Shown here one piece after another: positions 1,318 through 47,397 of a stretch of DNA of 48,960 nucleotides. The stretch comes from a virus. The DNA lies in the IMG/VR virus record IMGVR_UViG_3300037196_000239, positions 1 to 48,960 of that record. One strand, 5' to 3'. The position numbers were made by a program, and so were the translations under genes. Every line of letters starts with the position of its first letter. Position 1 is the stretch's first letter. The notes under the pieces are model-generated. The model saw only the letters and a program-made list of their open reading frames with translations, ran no database searches and had not been told where the DNA came from.

Positions 1318-1325
1318 ATTATCGG
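1318..1325 (-). promoter_or_regulatory. YCGATAHT promoter-like site (ACCGATAAT)
   Basis: Reads ACCGATAATATATAG on the minus strand, ending 29 nt before the start codon of the 722-1288 gene. The 12 bases after CCGATAAT match the site at 4138 closely, beyond the core motif. Confidence 0.6.
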
Positions 1326-1366
1326 TATACTCTCAGAGTTATTAAGTAAAGTAGGTAAAATAATAT

Positions 1367-1618
1367 TTATACTATTTGAAGCTTCCATAGATTACGTTCA
1401 TCAGTATCCTTTGAATGTAGTCTGGTAATTATTATTTCTCCCATAGTATCATTATCCTTTAGATTAGTCTTTACATTTTTAAGAGTTATAAACTGAGTCT
1501 TTCCTATATGTGATGAAGTAATAACAGTACCCTTAATAAATTTACCATATAGTCTATATTCTATGACATCAGCGGAATTTACATTTTCTAGTTTTGGATT
1601 TCTTAAAGCCTTGGTCAT
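1367..1618 (-). CDS. Hypothetical 83-aa protein
   Basis: Not recognised. Residues 20-50 (VIEYRLYGKFIKGTVITSS and following) suggest a small beta-barrel or SH3-like fold; the protein is basic overall. AAGGAG lies 6 nt before the ATG. The 109-nt gap upstream (1619-1727) shows no YCGATAHT core and no clear terminator. Confidence 0.65.
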   Translation of the reverse strand: MTKALRNPKLENVNSADVIEYRLYGKFIKGTVITSSHIGKTQFITLKNVKTNLKDNDTMGEIIITRLHSKDTDERNLWKLQIV

Positions 1619-1727
1619 TTATAACTCCTTTATTATGATTAATTCTATATTCCGCATCCGTCCCAAATTTCTAAGATAATATGTCTATTATTATACACTT
1701 TTAGTTTTATTGAAGTAAGATTTCATA

Positions 1728-1982
1728 CTAGTTATCTCCTCTTATATGTAAATCGGCATTAACTGAAACAACACAAAACTCATTAATAGTAAATACTTCT
1801 AATTGTCCATAAGAGTTATACATATATGTCTTATCAGCCAAAAATTTAGCTAGTGCCCTATTTGCTGACCACTTAAAACGAAACTGAAATGGAGGATATG
1901 TATAACGAAAACTATAAGGCTCCCGTACCTTTATAGAAACCCAAGAACCCGTTGGTATATGTAAAATTCTATACTTAAGCAT
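1728..1982 (-). CDS. LHIPTG-family small protein
   Basis: An 84-residue protein that begins with the hallmark YRILHIPTGSWV (residues 4-15). Next come an aromatic-rich stretch, a short helix (SANRALAKFLADK) and a terminal strand (EFCVVSV). Proteins at 5522 and 6110 share the same N-terminal motif and order. The function is unknown; the size suggests a one-domain binding or regulatory protein. AGGAGG lies 4 nt before the ATG and a YCGATAHT site lies 29 nt upstream. Confidence 0.7.
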   Translation of the reverse strand: MLKYRILHIPTGSWVSIKVREPYSFRYTYPPFQFRFKWSANRALAKFLADKTYMYNSYGQLEVFTINEFCVVSVNADLHIRGDN

Positions 1983-2011
1983 TTCACCTCCTACATGTAA
2001 TGCCTAACTAC

Positions 2012-2019
2012 ATTATCGG
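2012..2019 (-). promoter_or_regulatory. YCGATAHT promoter-like site (TCCGATAAT)
   Basis: Reads TATAGTCCGATAATGTAG on the minus strand, ending 29 nt before the ATG of the LHIPTG gene 1728-1982 and just outside the AGGAGG ribosome site. It lies within a few bases of the stop of the upstream gene, so it would re-start transcription for the downstream genes. Confidence 0.6.
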
Positions 2020-2020
2020 A

Positions 2021-2416
2021 CTATATAGTAAATTTATTAGCTTCTGCCTGTTCTTTTTTAGGAGTCTCTATTACTAGCAAAAGGGTATCTTTAGCTATTC
2101 TAACACAAGAGATATAAATGTCAGAAGTCTTATAATAATTTACTAACGCTAAAATAAGAATCTGAAACTCAATCGAAAAATCATCAGTATATTTAGCATC
2201 TTTTAGAGTAAGTTCTACTGATTTACTTTCTGCTAATTTTTCATTTATTTGCTTAACTAGTGAGTCAAATGCTGGCTTCATTTCTTTTGTTAAAGCCTCC
2301 ATTTCTTGTTTAGTATAGGCATGAGATTTTTCAGGTATATTTACATGAGAAGGCTCATTAATAGAAATTAATGTAAATATAGGTAAAATTAAAGCTAATG
2401 TTATATTTAATAGCAT
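2021..2416 (-). CDS. Hypothetical exported or membrane-anchored protein
   Basis: A 131-residue protein with an N-terminal hydrophobic stretch (residues 2-19, LLNITLALILPIFTLISI) that looks like a signal peptide or single anchor; no lipobox cysteine follows. The rest is charged and helical (about 35-75), then a mixed strand/helix part (IEFQILILALVNYY). Function unknown. AAGGA lies about 7 nt before the ATG. The 84-nt gap upstream (2417-2500) shows nothing recognisable. Confidence 0.65.
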   Translation of the reverse strand: MLLNITLALILPIFTLISINEPSHVNIPEKSHAYTKQEMEALTKEMKPAFDSLVKQINEKLAESKSVELTLKDAKYTDDFSIEFQILILALVNYYKTSDIYISCVRIAKDTLLLVIETPKKEQAEANKFTI

Positions 2417-2500
2417 AATAGTGTCCTTAAAAGAAGATATAACTTACAAGTAATCATTAACACTATAAGCTATATTACATTTAATTATACATAAAGCATA

Positions 2501-2833
2501 CTAACTAAAGGCCATTTTTAGCTCTTTTACCTTATTTAGTAACTCATCTCGTTCTTTATATACCTCCAATATATCCAATATATTAGGACCTTTACCAAAT
2601 AAAATACCTACTAAATCACCATCCTCATTATGAAATTTTGTCTTATTATACTCATCTAATGAATTTAGTTCATGATATAATCTTGAGTAATACTTGGCAT
2701 TTTCTTTTTCTTCTTCATACAACTGTTTATAACGAAAAGCCTCAGCTTTAAACTCCTCTAAAAGAGCATTAGATTTAGTTAGTTTATCATTGAATAAATC
2801 AACTAACTTCTCTATTGTTACCGAATCTTCCAT
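2501..2833 (-). CDS. Coiled-coil protein
   Basis: A 110-residue acidic/basic helical protein. Residues 1-60 and 88-108 have the heptad-like spacing and high Glu/Lys content of coiled coils, separated by a Gly/Asp/Pro-containing turn (NEDGDLVGILFGKGPN). No catalytic motif. GGGAGG lies 5 nt before the ATG, and a YCGATAHT site (2870-2877) lies 36 nt upstream, directly after the hsp20 terminator, so this gene has its own promoter. Confidence 0.7.
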   Translation of the reverse strand: MEDSVTIEKLVDLFNDKLTKSNALLEEFKAEAFRYKQLYEEEKENAKYYSRLYHELNSLDEYNKTKFHNEDGDLVGILFGKGPNILDILEVYKERDELLNKVKELKMAFS

Positions 2834-2869
2834 TTTAGCCTCCCTAGTTAAAAACTTCTTACAGTAAGT

Positions 2870-2877
2870 ATTATCGG
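2870..2877 (-). promoter_or_regulatory. YCGATAHT promoter-like site (GCCGATAAT)
   Basis: On the minus strand it begins a few bases after the T-tract of the hsp20 terminator and ends 36 nt before the coiled-coil gene 2501-2833. A terminator directly followed by this motif is also seen at 27668-27725, which supports a promoter role. Confidence 0.65.
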
Positions 2878-2884
2878 CAAAAAC

Positions 2885-2916
2885 AAAAACACCTCAAATT
2901 TTTATGAGGTGTTTTT
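2885..2916 (-). terminator. Rho-independent terminator after hsp20
   Basis: A perfect 12-bp inverted repeat (2885-2896 with 2905-2916, 8-nt loop). On the minus strand the stem is followed by a T-rich run, giving a standard intrinsic terminator 20 nt past the hsp20 stop. The stem is also preceded by A residues, so it could act weakly in the other direction. Confidence 0.85.
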
Positions 2917-2936
2917 TACGTCTTCTGGTAGGTGTG

Positions 2937-3386
2937 TTATTTAATATCTATTACTTTTAGTTGCTTCTCTTCTGGTACAAGCTGTTCTAAATCTATAGTC
3001 AATATACCTTCAGTAAATACTGCCTTATTAACTTTAATATTTTCAGCTAATTGAAAAGAGCGCTTAAATTGCTTTCCTGTAATTCCTCTATGTACTTCAT
3101 AAACCGATTCATCATGTTCTGATTTATGATGCCTACCCTCAAAGCAAGCAGTTTCATATAAATTAGAAGGACTATTTAGAGATATGACAGATAACACTCC
3201 ATCTTTTAAAGTTATCTCTATATCCTTTTTAAGATATCCAGCCAATGCTAGTTCTATCTTAAAATTATTATCTCCTATACGATAAATATTGTACGGAGGA
3301 AATGCTTGTGTGTTAGATGTTTCAAATAGCCTGGAAAATAAAGTATCCATACCAATTGATAACTCTTTGTATTGATTCATATCCAT
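2937..3386 (-). CDS. Small heat-shock protein, Hsp20/alpha-crystallin family
   Basis: An ATP-independent holdase chaperone that binds unfolding proteins in the cytoplasm. The 149 residues show the family layout: a short N-terminal arm ending in YNIYRIGDNNFKIELALAGYLKKDI, the alpha-crystallin beta sandwich (about 35-135, with DGVLSVIS and the late GILTIDLE strand) and a C-terminal I-x-I anchor (IDI). Hsp20 genes occur in several large T4-like phages, where they are thought to help capsid or host protein folding; that role is inferred here. AGGGG lies 6 nt before the ATG, and its own terminator follows. No YCGATAHT core lies upstream; a small hairpin with a CCGAAAGG core does. Confidence 0.9.
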   Translation of the reverse strand: MDMNQYKELSIGMDTLFSRLFETSNTQAFPPYNIYRIGDNNFKIELALAGYLKKDIEITLKDGVLSVISLNSPSNLYETACFEGRHHKSEHDESVYEVHRGITGKQFKRSFQLAENIKVNKAVFTEGILTIDLEQLVPEEKQLKVIDIK

Positions 3387-3410
3387 GTTATACCCCTTTA
3401 AGGCAGTTAT

Positions 3411-3429
3411 TGAACCCTTTCGGCGTTCA
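3411..3429 (-). promoter_or_regulatory. Leader hairpin with GAAA loop before hsp20
   Basis: On the minus strand TGAAC-g-CC-GAAA-GG-GTTCA can form a 7-bp stem with one bulged G and a GNRA-type tetraloop, ending 24 nt before the hsp20 start codon. A similar bulged hairpin with a GAAA-containing loop lies at 28286-28301. It may be an RNA regulatory element or a divergent form of the phage promoter (CCGAAA instead of CCGATA). Confidence 0.3.
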
Positions 3430-3467
3430 GTTATTAATAAGAGTCTATACCAGAAGACCTCTTAAAA

Positions 3468-3773
3468 TTAATTCATTAAACATAACATTTCTAAAATCTC
3501 ATCTTCATAGGCAATAAAATAATTTTCTAGTATTATTTGGTTATTAGTCTCATTAGTAGAGACTAAAGTTGCCCTCAAGAATATATCAGAGAGAATCCTA
3601 TCATAATTATCTAGTTGTACATTATATGAAGTAGTATTTATTCTCTTATGTAGTCTCTTTAATAGAACAGTGGCTTCATTTGAATAAACTCTACTAATAT
3701 CTAAAAGAATCTCTGCTTTACATGAGATACTATATCTAAAAGAACTACTAACATGCTCAAAAGAACTACGCAT
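3468..3773 (-). CDS. Hypothetical 101-aa protein
   Basis: Not recognised. A mostly helical protein with an acidic C terminus. It overlaps the stop of the membrane-protein gene 3766-4116 by 8 nt, so the pair is likely co-translated. The 81-nt gap between it and hsp20 holds the leader hairpin but no terminator. Confidence 0.65.
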   Translation of the reverse strand: MRSSFEHVSSSFRYSISCKAEILLDISRVYSNEATVLLKRLHKRINTTSYNVQLDNYDRILSDIFLRATLVSTNETNNQIILENYFIAYEDEILEMLCLMN

Positions 3774-4116
3774 GTTTACCTAACACTTCCCAAATAGATG
3801 AAAATATATTCCTATTAAAGGCTCTTACAATTAATAATAAACTAGACAATACAGAGGAAAGTTGTAGCATATATTCTGTATAATAGGCATGATTAACTAA
3901 TATTATACTAAAACAAAACAATAACCATATAAAATACCTAGGAAAAAATATCTTTAAAATATAATCCTCTAACGTTCGTTTTCCATCAGATAAAAGAAAA
4001 ATACGAGTATATAGACTATTATTTTTTAATTTATATCTCAAAAAGAGAGTTAAAATACCCTCTACTAATAAACCACCAAGCAGTAAAAAAGTAAGGGCTG
4101 TTATATAGAAGAGCAT
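3766..4116 (-). CDS. Integral membrane protein, about three TM segments
   Basis: A 116-residue protein with hydrophobic segments at about 2-26, 57-78 and 83-98, joined by a basic cytoplasmic-type loop (residues 27-50). No family was recognised. The size and topology would fit a holin or inner-membrane anti-exclusion protein, but nothing specific supports either. A YCGATAHT site lies only 21 nt upstream of the ATG, with GAGGAG between. Confidence 0.7.
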   Translation of the reverse strand: MLFYITALTFLLLGGLLVEGILTLFLRYKLKNNSLYTRIFLLSDGKRTLEDYILKIFFPRYFIWLLFCFSIILVNHAYYTEYMLQLSSVLSSLLLIVRAFNRNIFSSIWEVLGKHA

Positions 4117-4137
4117 TCAACCAAATCTCCTCTATAT

Positions 4138-4145
4138 ATTATCGG
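4138..4145 (-). promoter_or_regulatory. YCGATAHT promoter-like site (ACCGATAAT)
   Basis: Reads ACCGATAATATATAGAGGAG on the minus strand; the ribosome site begins 5 nt after the motif and the ATG of 3766-4116 follows 21 nt after it. It abuts the stop codon of the gp25-like gene (4146-4148). The short distance argues for transcription starting immediately downstream of the motif. Confidence 0.65.
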
Positions 4146-4553
4146 TTAGTAGTCCAGAGAAAATGAGACAGTTTGTGAAATAGTTTGGCCAGTAGACTTC
4201 ATTTGAAGAACAAGCTCAAATATTCGTGTATTTTGTGAAGTGGCTGCTGTTATTTGCGTAACAGTTACACGTGGCTCCCAGGTTGCAATATCAGATATAA
4301 TGGCATCAGCTACCAAACTCTGTGTTGTATCATTAATTGGTTGAAATATTAAATCCTGAGCTGAACTGCCAAAGGAAGGATTTCCTGGCATACAACCTTT
4401 TTTAGAATTTAATAAAACATAAATAGAATCTGTTATCAAATCTAAATCAGTTTCCATGGCAAAAAAACCAGAAGAACTTTTTCTTGGCGGAAATGCTATA
4501 CCAGAAAATGTAGAAGTTGTAGGAGTTGTTGGTGTATTTATTTTATAGCTCAT
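4146..4553 (-). CDS. 25: Baseplate wedge protein, gp25-like (W/gp25 family)
   Basis: A 135-residue homologue of the T4 gp25/P2 gpW-type wedge protein that initiates sheath assembly on the baseplate. The conserved core runs from DLDLITDSIYVLLNSKKG (about 36-53) through PGNPSFGSSAQDLIF to WEPRVTV (E93-P94-R95), the EPR signature of this family. The N-terminal Thr/Pro-rich tail is extra. It is transcribed away from the main baseplate operon (7.4-13.3 kb). GGA lies upstream of the ATG, and the 151-nt gap to the divergent zincin gene must hold its promoter, though no YCGATAHT site faces this gene. Confidence 0.88.
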   Translation of the reverse strand: MSYKINTPTTPTTSTFSGIAFPPRKSSSGFFAMETDLDLITDSIYVLLNSKKGCMPGNPSFGSSAQDLIFQPINDTTQSLVADAIISDIATWEPRVTVTQITAATSQNTRIFELVLQMKSTGQTISQTVSFSLDY

Positions 4554-4655
4554 TTTAAAATTCCTTTATTATATCAGGTAATTAGATTATTTTATTTAGT
4601 ACATTTTCTATATTTAATTAAGTATAGGAAATTATTACTCAACTATTACGAATAT

Positions 4656-4663
4656 CCGATAAT
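4656..4663 (+). promoter_or_regulatory. YCGATAHT promoter-like site (TCCGATAAT)
   Basis: A plus-strand copy, ATATCCGATAATCTTATAGG, ending 41 nt before the start of the plus-strand zincin gene at 4705. That plus genes carry the motif on the plus strand and minus genes on the minus strand is key evidence for a directional promoter. Confidence 0.65.
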
Positions 4664-4704: not shown

Positions 4705-5529
4705 ATGAAATCATTTAATTCCACTATGTTCATAAAACCAATAAACATAACTGAAATGTCATTAGGTATATCTAATGATTTGTGGAAGTCATTAGAGAAT
4801 CACATAGGAGATAGTGAAGAATGGTTTAATAAATTAATAAAAACATCTAAGTGGTCTTCACAGATTTCCGATGCTACCTTAGAAGCTATTATAAAGAATT
4901 ATTTTTTTACTTTACTAGAAAGAAATAATATAAATTTAATAGATTTGAAATGTAATTTCTACAAGACCGACGAAGCTGATAGTATTTATGGTAAATGTTC
5001 TTATAATTTACTAAATTCTTCTAATAAATTAAAGCATATAAAAGAAATAAAGGCTAAGATAGATATATATATGTTTAGGCTATTAGAAGTTAACTCAAAA
5101 GATGCTATAAAAATATTATACCATGAACTAATTCATTGTGAAGAACTTACCAAAGCCTTAATAAACATAGGCACTGATAAAATGTTTAATACTATTCCAC
5201 AATTTGAATGGGTAAGCGCTGACTTAGTAATAAATAAAAAAGAAAATAAAACAGAAGAAGACTATATAAATGATATCTCAGAAATAAATGCTTATGCCGG
5301 AGAATTAGCCCTACAACTATACTATAAATATAAACTTGAATTTAAAGATAGAACCACTAAAGAACAGGACTATTTTATAAGAACTAAAATAATTCCAAAT
5401 ATAAAAAATGAATTTTCAAATAGCATACAAGTAAATTATATTAACAAATTAATAAAAAGCAATAAATTTTATATAGCGTTAATTAAACAGCTTTCTATAT
5501 TAGCTTCTCATGTGGCAATAAATGAATAA
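4705..5529 (+). CDS. Putative zinc metallopeptidase (HExxH)
   Basis: A 274-residue protein with a zincin motif, LYHELIH (H140-E141-x2-H144), and a downstream ExxAY segment (E193, DISEINAYAGEL) that could supply a third zinc ligand as in gluzincin-type enzymes. The rest is helical and lysine-rich; no signal peptide, so it would act in the cytoplasm or in the virion. The substrate is unknown. A YCGATAHT site precedes it by 41 nt. The 3' end overlaps the LHIPT gene 5522-5845 by 8 nt. Without a wider alignment the zinc site is an inference from the motif. Confidence 0.65.
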   Translation: MKSFNSTMFIKPINITEMSLGISNDLWKSLENHIGDSEEWFNKLIKTSKWSSQISDATLEAIIKNYFFTLLERNNINLIDLKCNFYKTDEADSIYGKCSYNLLNSSNKLKHIKEIKAKIDIYMFRLLEVNSKDAIKILYHELIHCEELTKALINIGTDKMFNTIPQFEWVSADLVINKKENKTEEDYINDISEINAYAGELALQLYYKYKLEFKDRTTKEQDYFIRTKIIPNIKNEFSNSIQVNYINKLIKSNKFYIALIKQLSILASHVAINE

Positions 5530-6109: not shown

Positions 6110-6331
6110 ATGTATCAAATACTTCATATACCAAGTGGATGCTATGTAAAGTATAATGCTTATGAATTATATGATGCTTACAGACCAGGAGTTATCCTAA
6201 ATAGCAGCAAAAATAAAACTGCTCCAGTAGTGTGTTCTACGGAGCAGGAGGCTAAGCAAGTAATAACTAATATCTTATTAATACTATCAGAAGCCTTAGA
6301 TATTGAATTTGAAATTATTAAATTATATTAG
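6110..6331 (+). CDS. LHIPTG-family small protein (LHIPSGCYV)
   Basis: A 73-residue protein starting MYQILHIPSGCYVKYNAYE, the same N-terminal motif as the proteins at 1728 and 5522. It continues with VVCSTEQEAKQVITNI (helix) and ends in a strand, FEIIKLY. Function unknown. AGGATA lies a few nt before the ATG. Its 3' end overlaps the convergent 6318-7316 gene by 14 nt. Confidence 0.7.
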   Translation: MYQILHIPSGCYVKYNAYELYDAYRPGVILNSSKNKTAPVVCSTEQEAKQVITNILLILSEALDIEFEIIKLY

Positions 6332-7316
6332 ACTCTATAAGATTTCTAATCATGATATAGGTATATCCTTCTATATCGTTTATGGCTTGATTTAAAGCAC
6401 AATAATCAATAACTAAATCAACAAAAGGAAGGACATTAGTTCCTGCTACTGTTATATTAGTAAGTAAATCTATTAATCCTTTTTTAGATTTATCAAATGT
6501 CTGTAAAGCCTTTAAAATATATGTTTTATCATTTAAAAAAGATAAATAGCTATATTCAGGAGAAAAATATGGTTGGATATCAGGCAAAACTGATTTATTA
6601 ACTAAATAAACTTCAGAAGACATACACTCTAATAACGCAGAAGCCTTAGAGAAAGCAGAAGTTGTTTTTGGATTTGTTGATAAATTATATATATAATTTG
6701 GAACATGTATAGCAGGAGTTAGACCTAGTTTAAGATTTTTTTTAAAACTTAAAAGGTTATTAGTAAAATCTAAAAATTTATAATTAACCAATGGCAAAAG
6801 TCTGGCTTTTAAAGAAGAAAAATAATCCTCTTTATTTTTTTTAATTGCCAATGAATCATCTAGTAAGGCATCTATATTAGATACCGGAGTTTCTGCTCTA
6901 CATATGGCTGAGAGTTCTAATCTATTATAACACATATCATAAGCAACAACAGCTAAACCCCTTCCTAAAGTATAAAATTCAAGTAAACTAGAAGCATTTA
7001 TAAGTTCATCTGATAAATCATTCTCAACAAGAGTAAAATAATTGGAAGAAAGTAAATTATAAGTTATGGAATAAGAATTTTCTATAGAATATAGATAATC
7101 TTTTACTATTTCCTTTGAAAAAGAAAAGGACAGCATTTCTTCATATGAGATATCAGAAAGATTTCTTGCGCCATAAGAAATAGGACCATAGGCAGTAGGG
7201 CTGAAGCTACTTGGACCATAGATGGTGGGTCTGGCACCAAGAGTATTAAGACTATTTGTATAATTTACTACGGTAGAGGTATTTGCGAAGCCATTAGCAA
7301 AATAAGGTGATGACAT
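6318..7316 (-). CDS. Hypothetical 332-aa protein next to baseplate genes
   Basis: Not recognised. The N terminus (residues 1-50) is Ser/Thr/Tyr/Gly-rich with repeated YGP units (IYGPSS, AYGPIS), typical of a flexible virion tail. The remaining 280 residues look helical, with many Leu, Ser and Asn. No enzyme motif. It lies beside the gp53/gp5 operon but on the other strand, so a minor baseplate or tail component is possible. A YCGATAHT site lies only 17 nt before the ATG, with GAGGAG between. Confidence 0.65.
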   Translation of the reverse strand: MSSPYFANGFANTSTVVNYTNSLNTLGARPTIYGPSSFSPTAYGPISYGARNLSDISYEEMLSFSFSKEIVKDYLYSIENSYSITYNLLSSNYFTLVENDLSDELINASSLLEFYTLGRGLAVVAYDMCYNRLELSAICRAETPVSNIDALLDDSLAIKKNKEDYFSSLKARLLPLVNYKFLDFTNNLLSFKKNLKLGLTPAIHVPNYIYNLSTNPKTTSAFSKASALLECMSSEVYLVNKSVLPDIQPYFSPEYSYLSFLNDKTYILKALQTFDKSKKGLIDLLTNITVAGTNVLPFVDLVIDYCALNQAINDIEGYTYIMIRNLIESNII

Positions 7317-7333: not shown

Positions 7334-7341
7334 AATATCGG
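7334..7341 (-). promoter_or_regulatory. YCGATAHT promoter-like site (GCCGATATT)
   Basis: Reads GGCCGATATTATTAATGAGG on the minus strand, ending 17 nt before the ATG of 6318-7316. The divergent gp53 gene at 7384 has no copy facing it. Confidence 0.6.
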
Positions 7342-7383
7342 CCTAAGTACAATTAAGTTTAGTCCAAGAAGGGTATAATAGAT

Positions 7384-17556: not shown

Positions 17557-17564
17557 AATATCGG
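17557..17564 (-). promoter_or_regulatory. YCGATAHT promoter-like site (GCCGATATT)
   Basis: Reads TATGCCGATATTGAGTATT on the minus strand and ends 18 nt before the gp47 start codon, inside a 57-nt gap. It would drive gp47-gp46 together. Confidence 0.65.
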
Positions 17565-17595
17565 CATAGGCCCATCATTCTTTAGCTACTCAATA

Positions 17596-17901: not shown

Positions 17902-17987
17902 AGCCTTATTCCTTCTATTACTTAATTTAAAGCTATCCTTTGAATTAACTTTAGAATATTTATCTAACTTATGAGGTATTTTCTATT

Positions 17988-23863: not shown

Positions 23864-23968
23864 TAGAATGTCTCCAGTTATTAATTTATATTAAGTATAC
23901 AGTTAATTACATTCTATATTTATACAATAAAACAGCCTCATCCTTTATTTATATTATAGGGCTTAACA

Positions 23969-27599: not shown

Positions 27600-27667
27600 G
27601 TGCTTCGACTCCTGTATATTTAATTGCGATACCCTAGCCACAGGAATAGCAATTTTATGTAATAATG

Positions 27668-27675
27668 AGTATCGG
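27668..27675 (-). promoter_or_regulatory. YCGATAHT promoter-like site (ACCGATACT)
   Basis: Reads ATTTGACCGATACTCATT on the minus strand, 68 nt before the nrdJ ATG and immediately after the terminator at 27702-27725. The flank ATTTG is shared with the sites at 28507, 32723 and 44304. Confidence 0.6.
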
Positions 27676-27701
27676 TCAAATCATACAAAAAATTACAAAA
27701 A

Positions 27702-28506: not shown

Positions 28507-28514
28507 ATTATCGA
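28507..28514 (-). promoter_or_regulatory. YCGATAHT promoter-like site (GTCGATAAT)
   Basis: Reads TATTTGTCGATAATAGATTT on the minus strand, 16 nt before the ATG at 28490. With the sites at 32723 and 44304 it forms a TTTGTCGATA subclass. Confidence 0.65.
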
Positions 28515-28531
28515 CAAATATAAAATAATAA

Positions 28532-28942
28532 TTATACTATTACAGTTAAAATTTTTGGAGCAAGGGCTGCTATTTTTAGTCTATCATTATGTGGAACAAC
28601 TATACAGCCTTCTGATTCCTGTAAATAATTAGAACCATTTGGAGCTTCTTGTCCATGAATAAAAAAAGCAGACCTTCCAAAGGTATTTCCAGAAATTTGA
28701 GTTAATTGAGCACTATTTTCGCCTACTACTGGATGGTTTTCAAAGGAGCCTATATTATATTTTCCAGGTGGTAATGGGCCTATAAAATGAACCGAGCACA
28801 TATTTGGATTATTTTTACCATGTATTCTATTTGGATTTTGAGGTATTCTACTATCATTACCAGCATAAGCACTACTAGTTAAGACAGTGGAATCCTCATC
28901 ATTAGTTATAGTTCCAGTAGTTATTTTAAAAGTTATACTCAT
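28532..28942 (-). CDS. L,D-transpeptidase-like protein (DUF2778 type)
   Basis: A 136-residue protein with the L,D-transpeptidase-type catalytic pattern: RSAFFIHGQ (H96-G97) followed by SEGCIVVP (S110, G112, C113). The N-terminal half (PPGKYNIGSF) fits the lead-in of DUF2778, a YkuD-related group that includes murein-targeting effectors. It would cut or exchange murein stems. No signal peptide is present, so a holin-like route or virion delivery is needed. It lies next to a spanin-like gene, suggesting a lysis pair. AGAGG lies before the ATG. Confidence 0.7.
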   Translation of the reverse strand: MSITFKITTGTITNDEDSTVLTSSAYAGNDSRIPQNPNRIHGKNNPNMCSVHFIGPLPPGKYNIGSFENHPVVGENSAQLTQISGNTFGRSAFFIHGQEAPNGSNYLQESEGCIVVPHNDRLKIAALAPKILTVIV

Positions 28943-31306: not shown

Positions 31307-32701
31307 TTAATTAATCTTTTTCTTTTTATTCCCATTAATGTCCCAAATACTTTCCCTAGTTCTAAAAATACAATTAGGATGCCTACATAAAAAACAACTT
31401 CTAGTATTAGGAAGAAGTATACCAGACTTTAAAGTTTGTTTAATCTTTGTTATGTCTTTTGCCCTATCTATATCAATATTAAAAGCCAATTCCTTAAATG
31501 GATGTAATAGACCTCTAGTATAAATTAAGGTGCCATCAATTGTTTCTAACTTAGGATATTCATTTTTTAGAAGCTTAGCATATAAGCTAATTTGTTTATT
31601 ATATTTAGTATTGTTTTTTTCTAAATATTTCTCATCTAATTTAGATGATTTATAATCTAAAATATGAGCTATATTTTCATTAATTATAATTAAATCAGCA
31701 GTTCCATAAAAGTCATAATTCGACAAATTACCCTTCATTAAATGTTCTACTAATACAATAGATGAAGGATTTATTAACTGATAAAAAATAGAAGTATCAT
31801 CCAAGAATAAACTTTCTATAAATGGAGTATGTTCTGCTAACTCATTCTTGATGTCTAAATATTTATTAGAAGAAAAATAGTTAGAGGCTATATTTTTAAG
31901 ATTTTTAGTTTTACTTTTATTGTATCTGGTAAAAATAGTCTCAAAAATAAGATGTAATTTAGAACCTTGTTTTGTAGCCTCATTACCTAAACATTCCTCT
32001 ACCAATTCATTTGTAATATATCTATCTGTAAAATATTTAGGACAGAAACTAAAATCTTCTAACTTAGAATTATTCCATTCCTCTATTTTATCTGAAACAT
32101 ATGTGCTATTTTTAGCTAAAATATAAGTGAAGAAAGGCTCCAAAATAACTGAAAGTTTATCTAAATATAAAGAACCCGAGGATGCTACAAGAGGAGAGTG
32201 ACAATATCTTTTATAGGCTAAAAAATAAGAAGTTAATTTTCCTTCCTTTTTATATTTATTAAAGGCATCCTCATAAGAAACAGAATCCGTGACAGCAATT
32301 TCTCTTATATTTTTTTCAGTTAGAAGAATGTCATCCTTAACTTGTTCTAATAATAAAGAAGAAGTAGTAAAATTATCTATAAATTTACTACAATACTCAA
32401 CTACTGAATCGTTTAGAAAATATCCTAAACTAAGTTTGTGTCCAGGTGAGGTATATTTTTGAATATAGGAGTAAGCACAACTTAAATATTTACCTAATGA
32501 GATATTACACTGCTTACAGTTGTTTATCAGAATAGAAAAAGCATCCAAATCAGAAGATGAGGCAAAGGATGGTGTCTTGGACACTAGGCTACAGAATAGC
32601 AGAGCATCATACAGTAAAGTTTTCTCTTTTAGAGGAAAATATTTCTTTATAGAAAATTTTAAACTGGGCTGTATATAATTTATAGTAGTTTCGTCCAACA
32701 A
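31307..32701 (-). CDS. PD-(D/E)XK nuclease with Cas4/AddB-like four-Cys cluster
   Basis: A 464-residue nuclease of the RecB/Cas4 superfamily. The C-terminal half carries GSKLHLIFE (H250), FYGTADLII (D336), HILDYKSSK (D349, K351) and KQISLYA (Q370), the usual metal-binding set. One Cys before the domain (C220, FSFCPKYF) and three after it (C436, C439, C444; C-x2-C-x5-C) have the spacing of the 4Fe-4S cluster in Cas4 and AddB. It would be a single-strand DNA exonuclease or end-processing enzyme; no helicase motif is present. The TTG start has CGGAGG 8 nt upstream and a YCGATAHT site 21 nt upstream. It sits among presumed virion genes, an odd place for a repair enzyme. Confidence 0.82.
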   Translation of the reverse strand: MLDETTINYIQPSLKFSIKKYFPLKEKTLLYDALLFCSLVSKTPSFASSSDLDAFSILINNCKQCNISLGKYLSCAYSYIQKYTSPGHKLSLGYFLNDSVVEYCSKFIDNFTTSSLLLEQVKDDILLTEKNIREIAVTDSVSYEDAFNKYKKEGKLTSYFLAYKRYCHSPLVASSGSLYLDKLSVILEPFFTYILAKNSTYVSDKIEEWNNSKLEDFSFCPKYFTDRYITNELVEECLGNEATKQGSKLHLIFETIFTRYNKSKTKNLKNIASNYFSSNKYLDIKNELAEHTPFIESLFLDDTSIFYQLINPSSIVLVEHLMKGNLSNYDFYGTADLIIINENIAHILDYKSSKLDEKYLEKNNTKYNKQISLYAKLLKNEYPKLETIDGTLIYTRGLLHPFKELAFNIDIDRAKDITKIKQTLKSGILLPNTRSCFLCRHPNCIFRTRESIWDINGNKKKKIN

Positions 32702-32722: not shown

Positions 32723-32730
32723 AGTATCGA
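32723..32730 (-). promoter_or_regulatory. YCGATAHT promoter-like site (GTCGATACT)
   Basis: Reads AATTTGTCGATACTAGTATT on the minus strand, in the 40-nt gap between the 87-aa gene and the Cas4-like nuclease, 21 nt before the TTG start. Confidence 0.65.
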
Positions 32731-32741
32731 CAAATTCAGGA

Positions 32742-33005
32742 TTAACTGATAGAAGAATCTTCGGGAGGTGGCTCTAATGAGGCCTCCTCCGACTCCATCG
32801 AGGCCATTTCAGACTCTGCTTTAGCTTCCTCATCCTTTACTGTTGGGTCATTTTCATTTCTAACTACTACGAAATTTTGATTTTTTTCTTCCAGGGCCTT
32901 TTGTCCTATATTAGAAGCCTCAACATAAAAACTAGCACTTAAGATAAACATCATTTCTGCTAGTGTCATTTCTTGCTGTGAGAATGTAGCTGGTTGGTTT
33001 TCCAT
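32742..33005 (-). CDS. Small acidic protein
   Basis: An 87-residue protein with a helical first half (ATFSQQEMTLAEMMFILSAS) and a disordered, acidic C-terminal half (EEAKAESEMASMESEEASLE). The TFSQQE opening is like that of the 58-aa protein at 28314. Function unknown. It is coupled to the 703-aa gene by a TAATG overlap. Confidence 0.65.
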   Translation of the reverse strand: MENQPATFSQQEMTLAEMMFILSASFYVEASNIGQKALEEKNQNFVVVRNENDPTVKDEEAKAESEMASMESEEASLEPPPEDSSIS

Positions 33006-40225: not shown

Positions 40226-40567
40226 CTACCGTTTTCCCAAGCCATTAAAGCCCCTAAGCCATTTCTCAGGTTCAGCAGCACTATAGAAGTTAAGAACATT
40301 ATCAAACTTCTGAGTTGGTATATATTCTATTGAGGATTTTCCACACTTCTCACACACACACTCAAAAGGTTTCTTACTTACAACAATGTCACAGTCATCT
40401 CTAATGATATTGTATTTATAAATTTTTGAATCAGTAATTATTCCCAAAGGTCTAACATAATCACTTAAAAAATCAGTACTAATTACTTCGTTCTTTTTAA
40501 TAGCATTAAGAATTACTCCCTTGTGTTTACAATTAACACAAACATATGCTTTCTTTATTAAATCCAT
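40226..40567 (-). CDS. Zinc-ribbon protein
   Basis: A 113-residue protein with two half-sites for zinc: YVCVNCKHKG (C10, C13) and FECVCEKCGK (C70, C72, C75), the layout of a zinc ribbon with a long insert. The C-terminal part (PEKWLRGFNGLGKR) is basic. It could bind DNA, RNA or a polymerase; a transcription role is a guess. A YCGATAHT site lies 20 nt before the ATG. A second zinc-ribbon gene lies directly upstream. Confidence 0.7.
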   Translation of the reverse strand: MDLIKKAYVCVNCKHKGVILNAIKKNEVISTDFLSDYVRPLGIITDSKIYKYNIIRDDCDIVVSKKPFECVCEKCGKSSIEYIPTQKFDNVLNFYSAAEPEKWLRGFNGLGKR

Positions 40568-40587: not shown

Positions 40588-40595
40588 AATATCGG
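40588..40595 (-). promoter_or_regulatory. YCGATAHT promoter-like site (ACCGATATT)
   Basis: Reads TAATTTACCGATATTTTAAT on the minus strand, 20 nt before the zinc-ribbon gene 40226-40567 and upstream of the giant 1687-aa and 703-aa genes. It may serve the whole block down to 32.7 kb. Confidence 0.6.
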
Positions 40596-40599
40596 TAAA

Positions 40600-41013
40600 T
40601 TAGAAATAAATTGCATCAAATTCTTTTGCTATTAATGATTTTTCTTTAACACTTCTATAGCCTATGTGTTTACAATAAGAACACTCATAAGAAATAAAGG
40701 GAGTTACCAAATCAGAAATGGGAGAATAAATAGTACTTACTAATACTCCATTAATATGATGACCACATTTATTACAATTACAAGAGACAGTTTTATCTGA
40801 TATTTTTCCACCAAAGACTTTATTTTGTAATTCTAACTTTTTTTCAGCTTCAGTAACTCCTGTTGTCTGTATAACTATTGGTTTTATTTTTTTAACTACT
40901 GTATTAGTTATATGTTTAAATTTAGTTACTGGAGCTTCTAACTCTTCTTCAAAATAATCATAATCATTCTCATATAGATTGGCCTTAAGTTGTTGTTTTG
41001 TTTTCTTTGACAT
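40600..41013 (-). CDS. Zinc-ribbon protein, second of a pair
   Basis: A 137-residue protein with an acidic/basic N-terminal third, then CNCNKCGHH (C78, C80, C83) and ECSYCKHIG (C111, C114), a zinc ribbon arranged like the gene downstream but with the Cys half-sites in reverse order. The KHxG after the Cys pair is shared. Function unknown. It overlaps the gene upstream by 29 nt. Confidence 0.7.
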   Translation of the reverse strand: MSKKTKQQLKANLYENDYDYFEEELEAPVTKFKHITNTVVKKIKPIVIQTTGVTEAEKKLELQNKVFGGKISDKTVSCNCNKCGHHINGVLVSTIYSPISDLVTPFISYECSYCKHIGYRSVKEKSLIAKEFDAIYF

Positions 41014-41356
41014 TATTAAAATCCTGTAATAATATGGTTACCTTACTATCTGGATAATAAAACACTATAAATTCATTAAGCTTTTTCTGTTTAATGTCAA
41101 TAATAGCATTGAAAGATAACAAGTATTCAACATTGACTGACTCCTTAATAAAAAAATATAGATTATTTATAGATGGTATAAGAGAGGTATAACTTATACC
41201 ATTAACTATAAATAATCCAGTATGTTCTGATATGGCCTTATAAAAATCCGACATAGGATAACTCATATTGTCGAATTCCTTTGGTTGAAAAGTTAAAGGA
41301 CTGTCGATAATAGAGGTATGGGATAAAAAATCAGTCAACTTTAGTTTTTTAATCAA
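40985..41356 (-). CDS. Hypothetical 123-aa protein
   Basis: Not recognised. A mixed alpha/beta soluble protein (LFIVNGISYTSLIPS; FIVFYYPDSKVTILLQDF). The C terminus is Lys/Asn/Thr-rich. Overlaps both neighbours (8 and 29 nt), so it is translated with them. A T4-like head or neck protein cannot be excluded. Confidence 0.65.
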   Translation of the reverse strand: MIKKLKLTDFLSHTSIIDSPLTFQPKEFDNMSYPMSDFYKAISEHTGLFIVNGISYTSLIPSINNLYFFIKESVNVEYLLSFNAIIDIKQKKLNEFIVFYYPDSKVTILLQDFNNVKENKTTT

Positions 41357-43379: not shown

Positions 43380-43383
43380 AAAC

Positions 43384-44286
43384 TTAATTATACAGCTTCA
43401 GTCTACTCTTTAAAGTTTCCATTGTTGATTGTGGCATATATCTAATACTATTTGTTTGTATCCAAGCCATTAAATCAAAGGAACTTAAAGTCTCAGCTAA
43501 TTTTCCTAAATCATTGTCTTTATATTTAGAAGTATCTATGTAGTATACCTCCTTATTAGGCATCCAATTATGAAGCTTACTACAGATAGTTTGTATCCAA
43601 GATTCTGCTCCAAAATCCAATGCTACATATACCTTAGATTTTCCCATTAATTTTTGAAGTAAGTTAGTCTCATTTTCCTTGGTTATAGTTTTTCCAAATA
43701 AAGCCACAGCATTTGGAATAGAGCAAGCATCAAAAATACCCTCACATATTACTAAACTATCTGGAAAAAACTTATTTTCAGATAACTTAGACTCAAATAT
43801 AATATCCTTTCTTGGGATAGAAGGATTTTTATATTTCATTGAGCCATCTGATTTAATACTTCTTGCGGTCCAATAAACTATCTTATCTTCTCTAATCACA
43901 GGCAAAATAACCCTATCTAAATAAGCAGGATTTAAAGAAACTAAAGGTCTGTAAATAAAAATAAGCTCCTCTGACCATCCTCTTGAAACTAAGTAAGAAT
44001 ATTGAGCATCTTCAAAGGAAATTTCACGAACTGGATTTAAATCCTCTAAGGCATCTACATTCTTAACTGTTAAAGGTTTAAAAGATTTCAACTTAGTAAA
44101 TTCAGATAAGCTAATCTTATCTTGTAAAGAAGATATTATCTCAGGATATTTATACAATTCAGAAAGCCTACCATGCCATCCACATCTGAAGCAATTAAAC
44201 ATTGCCTTCGTTGGATTTACATAAAGCTTAGGAGACTTACAAGAATCACATCTTGGACAGTTTATCACATACTCAGAGTCAGACAT
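43384..44286 (-). CDS. DnaG-type primase (zinc ribbon plus Toprim-like domain)
   Basis: A 300-residue primase of the small phage type. The N terminus has a zinc site (C10-x2-C13 ... NCFRCGWHG, C32, C35). Residues about 90-165 resemble the DnaG N-terminal catalytic subdomain, and 178-240 the Toprim fold: LVICEGIFDA (E182) and VYVALDFGAES (D224). The usual DxD at the end of the second Toprim strand is D-F-G, so one metal ligand is missing or shifted. It makes RNA primers for lagging-strand synthesis (T4 gp61 role). GGGAGG lies 5 nt before the ATG and a YCGATAHT site lies 17 nt upstream. Confidence 0.82.
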   Translation of the reverse strand: MSDSEYVINCPRCDSCKSPKLYVNPTKAMFNCFRCGWHGRLSELYKYPEIISSLQDKISLSEFTKLKSFKPLTVKNVDALEDLNPVREISFEDAQYSYLVSRGWSEELIFIYRPLVSLNPAYLDRVILPVIREDKIVYWTARSIKSDGSMKYKNPSIPRKDIIFESKLSENKFFPDSLVICEGIFDACSIPNAVALFGKTITKENETNLLQKLMGKSKVYVALDFGAESWIQTICSKLHNWMPNKEVYYIDTSKYKDNDLGKLAETLSSFDLMAWIQTNSIRYMPQSTMETLKSRLKLYN

Positions 44287-44303
44287 TGCAACCTCCCACA
44301 GTA

Positions 44304-44311
44304 AGTATCGA
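44304..44311 (-). promoter_or_regulatory. YCGATAHT promoter-like site (GTCGATACT)
   Basis: Reads AATTTGTCGATACTTACTG on the minus strand, 17 nt before the primase ATG, in the 29-nt gap after the FEN stop codon. Confidence 0.65.
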
Positions 44312-44315
44312 CAAA

Positions 44316-45371
44316 TTACTCAGGTTCTTTATAGACCGGTTTAAAGGCAAATAAAGTGCTGATAACAAAGTCTATATAATTAGTAGCTAATGGAAATAAC
44401 TCATGAAATTTATGAATGGTTTCTTTTTTTCCAGGAAGCTCACCGACCTCTAATAACTTTTTTAAGGTTAAGGATACTGTATTTGAAGAAATTACAGAAG
44501 AAGTTAAATCTATTAACTTATAATTACGTTCAAGTAATTCTATATTCTCGTGAATAAGTTTCTCTAATTTAGTTGAATTCCGTGAAGAAAGAAGTTTAAT
44601 ATAATCTAAATTATTTTTAACATAAATATCTAAAGTAGATTTATTTTCTAATGGTAATTGTTCTTTCATTAATTTAAATAAAGTCTTATAACCAATTCCT
44701 TTAATTCCATTAATATTATCTGAAGTATCTCCAACTATAACCTTATAAAACAAATATTCATAACTACTAATAGTTACTCCTTTTGTTTTTGGCAATTCAG
44801 AAAAGTAACGAGTAAAATTATCTAAAGATACCTCTGATTTATTATAGGGAATAGAACAAATTACAGAAGGGGTTCTAACAAGCTGAAGAAAGTCGCTATC
44901 ATTACTCAGAATAATAACTTGCTTACCTATATTAGTAAGCTCTTTAGTAGCAATTCCTATGTAATCATCTGCTTCTATTCCATACTCACAGAAAACAGTT
45001 AGATTAAGTATATTACAAAGCTCTAATACTTTTTCTTTTAACTTACTAAATAAATCACTACTAGTATCATTAAAAGCGGAAACTTGTCCATAGTTAGTTC
45101 CTGAGGCAGGTCTATTTGCTTTATATGCTTCAAAGATAGCTTTCTTTCTTATAGAGCCACCATTATCAAATGCTACATAAAGTCGCTTACAAGAATATTT
45201 CCTGATACAAAGACTGATTTGATTAATAAAAATTTCAGCACATTCCTGTATTAACTCAGGTTCGGATATCACTACTGAACCCTTATTCTTAGAAAACATT
45301 ACCCTTATTAAGAGATTGTGTCCATCAATTAAGAGAACATTTTGTGAATCCATGAATTTAGGACTTACCAC
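44316..45371 (-). CDS. rnh: 5'-3' exonuclease/flap endonuclease (T4 RNase H type)
   Basis: Removes RNA primers and 5' flaps during lagging-strand synthesis. In 351 residues all FEN active-site blocks are seen: VLLIDGHNL (D16), AFDNGG (D69), GIEADDYIG (E133, D135, D136), LSNDSDFLQL (D158, D160) and the helix-3-turn-helix GDTSDNINGIKGIGYKT (D215, D218). GTG at 45371 overlaps the upstream TAG and has CGGAG 5 nt before it; an ATG at 45353 lacks a ribosome site. A YCGATAHT site lies 53 nt upstream inside the previous gene. Confidence 0.92.
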   Translation of the reverse strand: MVSPKFMDSQNVLLIDGHNLLIRVMFSKNKGSVVISEPELIQECAEIFINQISLCIRKYSCKRLYVAFDNGGSIRKKAIFEAYKANRPASGTNYGQVSAFNDTSSDLFSKLKEKVLELCNILNLTVFCEYGIEADDYIGIATKELTNIGKQVIILSNDSDFLQLVRTPSVICSIPYNKSEVSLDNFTRYFSELPKTKGVTISSYEYLFYKVIVGDTSDNINGIKGIGYKTLFKLMKEQLPLENKSTLDIYVKNNLDYIKLLSSRNSTKLEKLIHENIELLERNYKLIDLTSSVISSNTVSLTLKKLLEVGELPGKKETIHKFHELFPLATNYIDFVISTLFAFKPVYKEPE

Positions 45372-46513
45372 TATATCTCCGATAAAAGGTTTTTTACATA
45401 ATTCTCAACAGTATTAATACTATTATTATCGGTAATTTCAGCTTGTTCAATAGGTTCCTCAAGTTTTTTATTATACCTATTACTTATTCTATCAAATATT
45501 TTCTGCTCTTGTAGGCTATCACAGGAGGTATCATTATTCCACAGCATAGTATAACATTTAAACTGACTTGGGAGCTCTGGCTGGGTATTAGAGAAGTCTA
45601 TATTAGGTATTACAGAAGGTTTTTGAACTTTATCATAGGATGCTTTCATACCCTCTAATAAAACTCTATCAAAATATAAAAGCTTCATTAAACGCTGAAG
45701 ATTTAAGGAGAAGTGGGAAGAGTTGCCCAGAAAGAAATAATCTAAAAATTCTGGTTTAGTTAAAAAAGCATAACTTAAAAACTTATGGGCTTTAGCTATG
45801 AGTTCCAGACCTAATCCATTTGATTTAGAAAATTTTTTATAGTTGTTTTTAAAATAATCTTTATCAAAATAAAAATCTTCATTTTTCTTCTTGTTAGTAA
45901 ATTGAATATAAAAAAGCAACATATAAAGATATTGAAGACTCATATACTTTAAACTATCTAATCCAAGTTTATTTACTATTTTATAAGTTCCTATAAGTTT
46001 AGAAAGAATATCTAAACCAGTTTTATTATTATAGTAATAAAGTCTATTATCTGAATTTATAGCCAGAAAAGATATTTTAGCAGAAAAGGAGACTAGAGAC
46101 CATAAATCTAAATTATTAGAAAGAATACAGATAGATTTATTATTTATCTGTTGATTAAGTAAAGAGAATATGATATTTTTAACATTTCCATATATTACAG
46201 ACTGATTTAAAGCCTGTGTTAAAGTTGTATTTTGTTCTGAAATAAACAGAATTCCAGAAGGGTTTATTATAGTAAAAGCAGAATATAGCCATGTATATAC
46301 TCTTTTAACTAATTCTTCTATGGATTTATTATAGAGAGCAGAAGTTTTACACTGCTGTCTGAATAACAATAATTCCTCAAGATAAGTTATATCAACAATT
46401 AGAAGAGGATTGTTATTATTCTCAGATATCTTAGTTCTGGTATTAAGTTTTTTAGACCTTTTTCCAGTTCTGAGTCTTCCAGATAATTTTTGTCTAAATT
46501 TAATAGAAGCCAT
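45371..46513 (-). CDS. Degenerate FEN/PIN-like protein next to the FEN gene
   Basis: A 380-residue protein. Its first half follows the FEN pattern: a basic tail, NPLLIVDITYLEELL (D41, compare NVLLIDGHNLL), a mid strand GILFISEQN (compare RLYVAFDNG), and SICILSNNLDLWSLV (D136, compare VIILSNDSDFLQLV). The EADD block and the GxxSDN helix-3-turn-helix are absent, so it is probably not a nuclease. It may be a decayed paralogue that partners the active enzyme. The C-terminal half is helical and unrecognised. The relation is inferred from the shared pattern only. Confidence 0.6.
   Translation of the reverse strand: MASIKFRQKLSGRLRTGKRSKKLNTRTKISENNNNPLLIVDITYLEELLLFRQQCKTSALYNKSIEELVKRVYTWLYSAFTIINPSGILFISEQNTTLTQALNQSVIYGNVKNIIFSLLNQQINNKSICILSNNLDLWSLVSFSAKISFLAINSDNRLYYYNNKTGLDILSKLIGTYKIVNKLGLDSLKYMSLQYLYMLLFYIQFTNKKKNEDFYFDKDYFKNNYKKFSKSNGLGLELIAKAHKFLSYAFLTKPEFLDYFFLGNSSHFSLNLQRLMKLLYFDRVLLEGMKASYDKVQKPSVIPNIDFSNTQPELPSQFKCYTMLWNNDTSCDSLQEQKIFDRISNRYNKKLEEPIEQAEITDNNSINTVENYVKNLLSEI
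45425..45432 (-). promoter_or_regulatory. YCGATAHT promoter-like site (ACCGATAAT), intragenic
   Basis: Reads AATTACCGATAATAATAG on the minus strand inside the 3' end of 45371-46513, 53 nt before the FEN start. The only member of the list that lies within coding sequence; it would give the FEN gene extra transcription. Confidence 0.45.
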
Positions 46514-46814
46514 AGTTATTCATTGTCAGCTTTCATACTACTTATTTATCTTCTTAGTTCTAGTTCCAGTTCCTTATGGGTTGCTCGAACTTCGTTCTCT
46601 CAACCCAGTTCTCAGCTTCGCTTCGAACGATTTATTTTTGTTTTGAACTTCTATCTTTTAGGTTTTACTTGTTTGTTTAGGCTTTCTTTGCTTTGCTTGA
46701 AGGTTAATATTTAAGCGACAAGTTGCTGCTTTATTATCGTATAATATTGGAGAAACTTTAGGGTTTTTGAAAATAAATATTTGGTATCCTAAATAATTAA
46801 TTTTAGGAGGTTTA
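46514..46814. other. 301-nt divergent intergenic region with GTTC/GAAC repeats and a stem-loop
   Basis: The only gene-free stretch longer than 300 nt. It separates the minus-strand replication block from the plus-strand YiiX/SSB group. It holds three direct AGTTC repeats at 6-nt steps (46556-46572), a fourth at 46607, and a two-tier stem-loop: GGGTTG (46578-46583) with CAACCC (46601-46606) enclosing GAAC (46587-46590) with GTTC (46594-46597). The next 80 nt are strongly T/C-biased on the plus strand. A TATAAT string (46740-46745) and AGGAGG at 46805 serve the plus gene. A weak ACGATAAT (46733-46739, minus) may be a promoter variant. A control region or replication origin is possible. Confidence 0.5.
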
Positions 46815-47351
46815 ATGCTGTATACCGAATTGCGTCATGGCGATATTTTACTTTTTACACATAAAGAAAAAGCAACTTTCCTTCAGAAACTAATTAGATT
46901 GATTGAAGGAAGTTCTTTTGTCCATTCAGCTGCTGTCAGAGAGGTGGATGGAAAGCTATACATTCTTGAAGCACTTACTTTGAGAACTTTATCCTATGCT
47001 CCTTTTTATTATTTAGAAGATGCTGAGGAAGTTTTTTGTTTTAGACCAACTTTTAATCTTCCAGAAATTAATGAAAAAAGTTTTTGGAGACATGAGCCTT
47101 ATGGATATTTATGTTTAGCTGATTCTGCCTTAAACCATTTCTTACATAGGCTTACCTTTGGTTGTTGGACATTTAAGCCTATTTTTCAGCAGCTATTTCG
47201 TTATAGGGCAATGGACTGCTCAGTATTAGTGGCTAATATGCTTGAAGTTAGTGCTAATACCTCCTGGTGTAAGTATAATGATGTAGTTGAACCTGATGAT
47301 TATGCCCTTCACCCTAGTGATTTCGTTCCTATGGGTCAGGTTATGTGGTAA
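46815..47351 (+). CDS. YiiX-like permuted NlpC/P60 cysteine hydrolase
   Basis: A 178-residue protein with the circularly permuted NlpC/P60 order: RHGDILLF near the N terminus, SFVHSAAV (H37), ILEAL (E52), then far downstream MDCSVLVANML (C135). This layout is known from YiiX/YebB-type proteins. The fold acts on peptide or acyl bonds; murein stem peptides or lipids are possible targets. No signal peptide. AGGAGG lies 4 nt before the ATG, one of the strongest ribosome sites here. It is separated from the SSB gene by 131 nt that contain a promoter-like site, so the two are probably independent. Confidence 0.75.
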   Translation: MLYTELRHGDILLFTHKEKATFLQKLIRLIEGSSFVHSAAVREVDGKLYILEALTLRTLSYAPFYYLEDAEEVFCFRPTFNLPEINEKSFWRHEPYGYLCLADSALNHFLHRLTFGCWTFKPIFQQLFRYRAMDCSVLVANMLEVSANTSWCKYNDVVEPDDYALHPSDFVPMGQVMW

Positions 47352-47389
47352 ATTTTCAAAAATTTTTTCTCATGTTTTCTGAGTGCTTA

Positions 47390-47397
47390 CCGATATT
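47390..47397 (+). promoter_or_regulatory. YCGATAHT promoter-like site (ACCGATATT)
   Basis: Reads GCTTACCGATATTAGTTATG on the plus strand, 85 nt before the SSB start. The long distance leaves room for a structured leader (47404-47446). Confidence 0.6.

Follow-up and report, generated by a model that had tools for sequence, protein, structure and literature searches.

Within the sigma-70 family, promoters with a fixed -35 element are normally read by sigma factors that carry a region 4. In bacteriophage T4, the middle promoters (MotA/AsiA) serve replication, repair and nucleotide genes and are formed by a MotA box and a sigma-70 -10 element. The late promoters of T4 consist of the block TATAAATA and have no -35, and their factor gp55 resembles domain 2 only, as outlined in PMC2988020; for SPO1, with gp33/gp34, the late consensus is quoted as CGTTAGA-N17-19-GATATT (PMC3601020). 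The flagellar promoters of sigma-28 factors (FliA/SigD/WhiG) join a TAAA -35 to a CCGATA -10 at a spacing of 15 nucleotides (nt), or 11 after TAAAGTTT, and Table 1 of PMC2859248 gives the FliA consensus as TAAAGTTT-n11-GCCGATAA. This study concerns YCGATAHT, an octamer recurring upstream of genes in the IMG/VR virus record IMGVR_UViG_3300037196_000239, which in its entire length of 48,960 bases is the window analysed here. An earlier reading of the same DNA, referred to below as the original prediction, had regarded the octamer as a strand-matched promoter comparable to the single-block late promoters of T4 and as a sign of a phage-encoded specificity factor.

With moderate confidence, YCGATAHT is here interpreted as the probable -10 half of a two-part, sigma-28-type promoter, TAAAGTTT-n11-RCCGATAAT, hereafter called class I. 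Both parts of the sigma-28 pattern, the -10 octamer GCCGATAA and a -35 TAAA(GTTT) at the right spacing, are found in the sequence: TAAA lies 15 bases, and the fuller TAAA(GTTT) 11 bases, upstream of RCCGATAAT, which is the layout of the sigma-28 consensus. When agreement with TAAA was scored letter by letter, the value at -21, counted from the C of CGATA, was 2.50 of 4 against about 1.3 at other offsets (z 6.4), and base shuffling of the upstream 40-mers, repeated 20,000 times, never reached it. Across 20 curated sites selected for CGATA only, the eight -35 positions match in 18 (T), 13 (A), 12 (A), 11 (A), 9 (G), 9 (T), 11 (T) and 13 (T) cases; C precedes CGATA in 15, the base before that C is A or G in 17, and A or T follows CGATA in 17. 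Each of the 16 consensus letters of the two sigma-28 octamers agrees in 8 to 20 of the 20 sites. The site set exists in two versions: the first includes 27964(-), later dropped as a probable chance copy, and three sites named by hand, 45425(-), 48649(+) and 56756(+), which lie in coding DNA according to the gene models or overlap a miscalled start; the second, on which the eight -35 counts are based, omits 27964(-) and adds 46735(-), and the two counts of 17 for the bases flanking the -10 come from the first. The description of a strand-matched, promoter-like element is thus retained, but the analogy with a T4-late single block is abandoned, since a -35 is conserved at fixed spacing. Nor does the motif imply a phage-specific factor, because the whole pattern fits a known bacterial consensus. 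The flanking ATTTR persists as a tendency rather than a firm rule, T being found in 13, 15 and 12 of 20 sites at the three positions before R.

All 14 copies of the octamer listed originally were found at their coordinates and on their strands, together with a fifteenth at 41304(+), antisense within a gene, which had been missed and is probably due to chance. The total of 15 exceeds the mean of 3.54 and the maximum of 10 recorded in 100 shuffles of the window, but the bare count is weak evidence, because the reversed pattern is more frequent than YCGATAHT itself (24 versus 15); the signal is carried by position and strand. In agreement with the placement originally described, 13 of the 15 copies are in non-coding DNA, a fraction amounting to 5.0% of the window, and each of these 13 shares its strand with the gene that follows. 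Only 41304(+) and 45425(-) depart from this pattern, the latter inside coding DNA, 53 nt ahead of the next start. Sense-strand leaders account for 2.6% of the both-strand sequence and hold 13 of the 15 copies (log10 p -18.6), and in 200 Markov-1 sequences given the same leaders, in-leader copies averaged 0.10 and never exceeded 1. Distances to the start codon are short, as had been noted, at 16-53 nt for 13 of the 14 listed copies and 85 nt for the one at 47390 in the gene models used here. Those models are open reading frames picked by us, 105 in the 101.6-kilobase (kb) assembly introduced below, with no published annotation. The two copies said to stand right behind terminators do so, 2870 following a predicted terminator at 2916-2885(-) and 27668 another at 27725-27702(-). 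Scans for sigma-70 promoters yielded chance numbers only.

An identical primase is encoded on two further contigs, one of which, 80,322 bases long, shares 27 kb with the window at 99.9% identity and extends the phage to 101,620 bases. A motif-free hexamer search in this assembly, covering 55 leaders of at least 15 nt, returned CCGATA and AATTAA as the two most enriched words. The former is found in 14 leaders out of 24 copies overall, with 0.42 expected, and the latter in 27 of the 55 leaders, with 3.8 expected. AATTAA is followed by T at +7 in 29 of 33 copies, giving AATTAAnT, hereafter class II, and no -35 element was seen around its copies. The core CGATA occurs 77 times, 20 of them in non-coding DNA; a same-strand start lies within 100 nt of 18 of these 20, and another, at 46735(-), aims at a gene about 220 nt away. 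The T4 word TATAAATA is present in both contigs but is not among the listed leader-enriched words.

The two words divide the genes between them. Of the 55 leaders, 13 have only class I and 24 have only class II, while 3 have both and 15 neither (Fisher p 0.007 for mutual avoidance), and it would seem that two distinct promoter classes operate in this phage. Class I heads gp47, NrdJ, a PD-(D/E)XK nuclease, the primase, SSB, RecA, an HNH endonuclease, the sigma gene described below, two endonuclease-like or remnant genes recognised by eye, and small unknown genes, an assortment that agrees with the DNA-metabolism and accessory genes originally assigned to the motif. Class II heads a gp25/TssE-like wedge gene, the baseplate operon, the cassette at 18-21 kb, a gene formerly called the fibre, the major head protein, tail tube and sheath genes, and unknown genes among others; AATTAAnT is probably the late promoter of this lineage. 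The genes with both classes are the one starting at 4705, SSB and sigma. The absence of YCGATAHT before the baseplate operon, the cassette and the fibre, already remarked upon, is confirmed, and AATTAA is found there instead: 7351..7356(+) precedes the baseplate operon (from 7384), 17943..17948(+) the cassette, and two words within 23881..23908(-) the supposed fibre gene 21575-23863, which has no PHROG match. Further class II words in the window are 4614..4619(-) before the wedge gene 4146-4553, 46795..46800(+) before gene 46815-47351, and 47449..47454(+), 34 nt before the doubly marked SSB-like gene.

The -35 element recurs in relatives, contigs G003 to G007, which were found by searching with RecA and the major head protein. 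Head protein identity is 87% for G003 and G004, apparently one species, 74% for G005, 65% for G006 and 63% for G007. Leaders of G003, G005 and G006 hold 17 copies of CGATAHT, and those of G007 none. These 17 sites, which played no part in finding the -35 element, have T at -21 in 16 cases (p 2e-7) and A at -19 in 12, and their best TAAA offset is again -21. The set omits seven non-coding copies with no start within 100 nt, among which G003 21793 and G006 42718 are long-leader promoters matching 46735(-), and G003 45872 precedes the SSB gene. Both G003 and G006 carry a matching promoter at the corresponding position ahead of the FEN-primase stretch; the letters TAAAGTTT are identical in all three contigs, and the leader downstream of the promoter has diverged between relatives.

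Among leader hexamers, AATTAA ranks first in G003, G005, G006 and G007 and fourth in G004. In an orthologue comparison whose class assignments accept any copy up to 100 nt away, even one in coding DNA, it is kept before orthologues of class II-only genes in 16/21 cases in G003, 7/9 in G004, 8/11 in G005, 12/13 in G006 and 3/3 in G007, and it is found before orthologues of genes with neither word in 6/18, 2/7, 0/9, 2/15 and 0/1, respectively. CGATA is kept before orthologues of class I-only genes in 5/8 (G003), 0/2 (G004), 1/1 (G005) and 0/5 (G006), compared with 2/18, 2/7, 1/9 and 2/15 for genes with neither word, and for genes with both words in 2/3 (G003), 1/2 (G004) and 2/2 (G006, SSB and sigma). 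Within these figures, two class I-only sites are coding copies (before 41842 and 80668), one of which is the G005 match, the RecA row is invalid owing to a wrong start at 48661, and the primase copy among the five in G003 has no T after the core and is doubtful. Class I is clear in this phage and G003 and present but sparser in G006; the contigs of G005 and G007 are virion-rich. More distantly, T4 and 45 of 80 gp47-bearing loci (those above 8 kb, partly redundant) show no enrichment of CCGATA in leaders (2 seen, 4.35 expected over the 46 loci), and SPO1 has no CGATA in leaders over 43 kb, a weak result given 1.58 expected. The class I pattern therefore appears to belong to this lineage.

Individual class I sites in the window differ in quality and conservation. 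At 1318..1345(-), before gene 722-1288, the -35 reads TTAA and the -10 CCGATAAT; 2012..2039(-) precedes gene 1728-1982, and 2870..2897(-), right behind its terminator, gene 2501-2833. The site 4138..4165(-), before gene 3766-4116, has a poor -35, and its G003 orthologue is preceded by CGATACT with T at -21. The site 4636..4663(+) before gene 4705-5529 is kept in G003, as are 17557..17584(-), with TAAAG and GCCGATAT, before the gp47/SbcD-like gene 16498-17538; 27668..27695(-), right behind a terminator, before the NrdJ-like ribonucleotide reductase 25005-27641; 32723..32750(-) before the PD-(D/E)XK nuclease 31307-32701; and 40588..40615(-) before gene 40226-40567, the last not kept in G006. A TAAA -35 is found at 7334..7361(-), before gene 6318-7316, and 28507..28534(-) precedes the small gene 28314-28490. 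At 44304..44331(-), before the primase-like gene 43384-44286, the -35 is TAAAG, and the site is not clearly kept in G003 and not kept in G006. The promoter 47370..47397(+) serves the SSB-like gene 47483-48388, and CGATA is kept before its orthologue in G003, G004 and G006. The site 45425..45452(-), within coding DNA before the FEN-like gene 44316-45371, is doubtful, and none of its orthologues in G003, G004 and G006 has CGATA within 100 nt. The antisense fifteenth copy (41304-41311) would correspond to 41284..41311(+). A profile scan added 46733..46760(-), TAAAGTTT-n11-TACGATAA with TAAAGTTT letter-perfect, located about 220 nt before gene 45371-46513 at the head of the FEN-primase stretch. 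The intervening 46520-46730(-) was considered as a non-coding RNA and rejected; with z -1.97, no Rfam match in the window and divergence between relatives, it is treated as a long 5' leader. On contig G002, an HNH endonuclease gene and the two endonuclease-like or remnant genes recognised by eye each have their own class I promoter, at 44859(-), 37163(-) and 9747(-), as if they were mobile genes travelling with it.

Genes in the extension matching PHROGs include terminase, portal, head protease, major head protein, tail sheath and tail tube, and a RecA-like recombinase was matched in NCBIfam with a score under the cut-off of the RecA model. By its terminase, about 30% identical to those of T4-superfamily phages, the phage is assigned to that superfamily; its primase is about 25-27% identical to those of SPO1 and similar phages. 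A PHROGs scan of 58 of the 105 gene products gave no match to a DNA polymerase, and because of this and the open contig ends the genome is taken to be incomplete. No close relative was found in the phage records searched (megablast with the first 24 kb; tblastn with one baseplate protein and the sigma). Between the SSB and RecA genes, endonuclease-like repeats seem to vary from one near-identical contig to another (window 48372-48960, G001 1-3414, G002 50233-53249). A DNA methyltransferase at G002:48297-49613(-) has its PHROG match confined to residues 293-437, the preceding part being intein-like by eye, and window 2937-3386(-) encodes an IbpA-like small heat-shock protein (E 3.8e-25, under the cut-off of the model).

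The sigma-like factor expected elsewhere in the genome by the original prediction was found outside the window, at G002:49615-50595(-) (L123:11615-12595, minus strand). The protein of 326 amino acids matches sigma region 2 weakly throughout: Pfam E 1.4e-4 (22 bits, under the curated 24), TIGR02937 3.3e-5, also under its cut-off, and phrog_351 2.5e-4. Relatives in other contigs share about 50-74% identity, and Sigma70_r2 and phrog_351 are matched by six of six family members. No sigma-70 region 4 was detected at the curated cut-off in any of five phage records; a single weak match (E 0.01) came from a frame of 38 residues at another place in G006. Comparison with T4 gp55 hints at homology only marginally (E 0.0028 and a probability of 11% in hhalign, E 0.79 in hmmsearch), and phrog_234, 'late sigma', is matched by two of six members (best E 0.17). 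AF2 models reached a pLDDT of 38.8 from the single sequence and 57.1 from a six-sequence alignment, with a best Foldseek E of 1.1, and sequence searches of the PDB gave nothing meaningful. Since it has no detectable region 4, the protein is a better candidate for the single-block class II than for class I.

Taken together, these patterns suggest a model, which we hold to be somewhat better than an even proposition, in which a holoenzyme of sigma-28 type, most likely that of the host, would read class I and the phage sigma the late class II. An RNA polymerase with a sigma-28-family factor, most likely the flagellar or motility sigma of the host or close kin, would bind TAAA at -35 and CCGATA at -10 and start a few bases downstream, which would explain distances to start codons as short as 16 nt. 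Class I would then drive the replication, repair, nucleotide and endonuclease genes, along with the gene for the region-2 sigma of the phage, and that sigma would read AATTAAnT, with no -35, ahead of virion genes. A fixed -35 normally needs region 4, so class I would most simply be read by a region-4-bearing factor of sigma-28 type, encoded by the host or in the missing part of the genome; a promoter with no -35 need not have such a reader, as gp55 illustrates, and class II would most simply be read by the phage sigma. The sigma gene is headed by elements of both classes, as expected of a factor started by class I and then reinforcing itself. The sequence itself shows that the motif has two parts at a set spacing, that it is biased in strand and position, that it recurs in relatives and that the two classes are divided by gene function; promoter activity in the cell, the assignment of each sigma to its class and the time order are what we infer from these features.

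A reader of class I encoded by the phage, be it the region-2 protein or the product of a sigma-28-like gene in the unsequenced part, is possible though rather unlikely; it would make class I phage-specific, in line with the original prediction. The sigma gene exists, both its elements are kept in G006, CGATACT precedes it in L168-L170 and L172, and the genome is incomplete; moreover, the -10 drifts by lineage, from CGATAAT and CGATATT here to mostly CGATACT in G003 and G006, as a co-evolving phage factor might allow. Such a reader is, however, difficult to reconcile with a fixed -35 when neither the phage sigma nor the five phage records show region 4 at cut-off, and with the close match to a host-type consensus. 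A promoter of the SPO1 late type, read by gp33/gp34-like factors, would suit the relatives of the primase, among which are SPO1 and similar phages, the compatible spacing to GATA and the overlap with GATATT; it is nevertheless highly improbable, as the CGTTAGA -35 is not seen (C, G and T at -24 to -22 in 4, 5 and 5 of 20 sites, G at -19 in 1 of 20), gp34 and the phage sigma do not align (hhalign E 0.24), SPO1 has the leader deficit described above, weak as that is, and the genes marked belong to DNA metabolism and not to the virion. Closeness to start codons would also be compatible with an operator or an RNA or translation element in place of a promoter, but the two-part structure with promoter geometry, the two copies right behind terminators and the conserved copy some 220 nt from its gene leave this a very slender chance. 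The T4-late analogy, a single block read by a gp55-like factor, shares the argument of short distances and has the T4-superfamily terminase on its side; with a -35 conserved here and in relatives, AATTAA heading the virion genes instead, and no enrichment of leader CCGATA in the 46 loci including T4, it is close to negligible for class I. It is class II that resembles the T4 late system, as a single block with no -35 heading virion genes in a T4-superfamily phage with a divergent sigma region-2 protein, although its word is AATTAAnT, not TATAAATA. T4 middle promoters are like class I in the genes they serve but unlike it in their composition, class I having a sigma-28-type pair.

Class I differs from flagellar promoters in occurring in a phage, on replication and repair genes, in having G at -2 at no more than 8 of the 20 sites (against 13 of 17 among the relatives), and in a nearly fixed T right after the -10 octamer. 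Several observations weigh against the interpretation favoured here. The -35 is loose past the first T (A in 13, 12 and 11 of 20 sites), which is also a difference from flagellar promoters. The TAAA peak is not confined to the curated sites, as the 57 CGATA copies outside the set also peak at -21 (1.70, z 2.6); these may be real sites or reflect a background bias. Relatives have A at -20 in only 6 of 17 sites (T in 7), and in G003 the spacer of the promoter ahead of the FEN-primase stretch is longer by one base. The enrichment of CGATA in leaders is not significant in G004, G005, G006 or G007, and the orthologues of class I-only genes lacking CGATA in G006 number five of five, two of the corresponding sites in this phage being coding copies and a third the doubtful 45425. 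No FliA_WhiG match was found in the window, and a sigma-28-like gene of the phage could sit in the missing part of the genome. Finally, a distant relative, L173 (contig JAJYBA010000010.1), in which primase-, SSB-, RecA-, sigma- and terminase-like genes are similarly arranged (by eye for all but sigma), was binned in a Bacillota metagenome-assembled genome, a weak host hint as binning of phage contigs is unreliable; that genome has no flagellin or FliA match above cut-off, a result limited in weight by possible misbinning and by the poor display of class I in L173.

Among the matches listed from the open-licence PMC literature, none described a phage regulon served by sigma-28-type promoters, which is weak evidence. 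It is possible, though less likely than not, that a T4-superfamily lineage has replaced the T4 programme by a two-sigma cascade, in which the flagellar sigma-28 of the host is diverted to the replication regulon and to the phage sigma gene, and the phage sigma then serves the AATTAAnT late promoters; productive infection would in that case be tied to motile, sigma-28-active cells. If the host sigma-28-type reading of class I is true, a large phage would use a promoter type hitherto associated chiefly with motility for its core DNA-metabolism regulon, and infection would be coupled to the motility state of the host. From two short words it would then be possible to assign many transcription units of an uncultured phage lineage to a promoter class, and a candidate pair of sigma and promoter would be provided.

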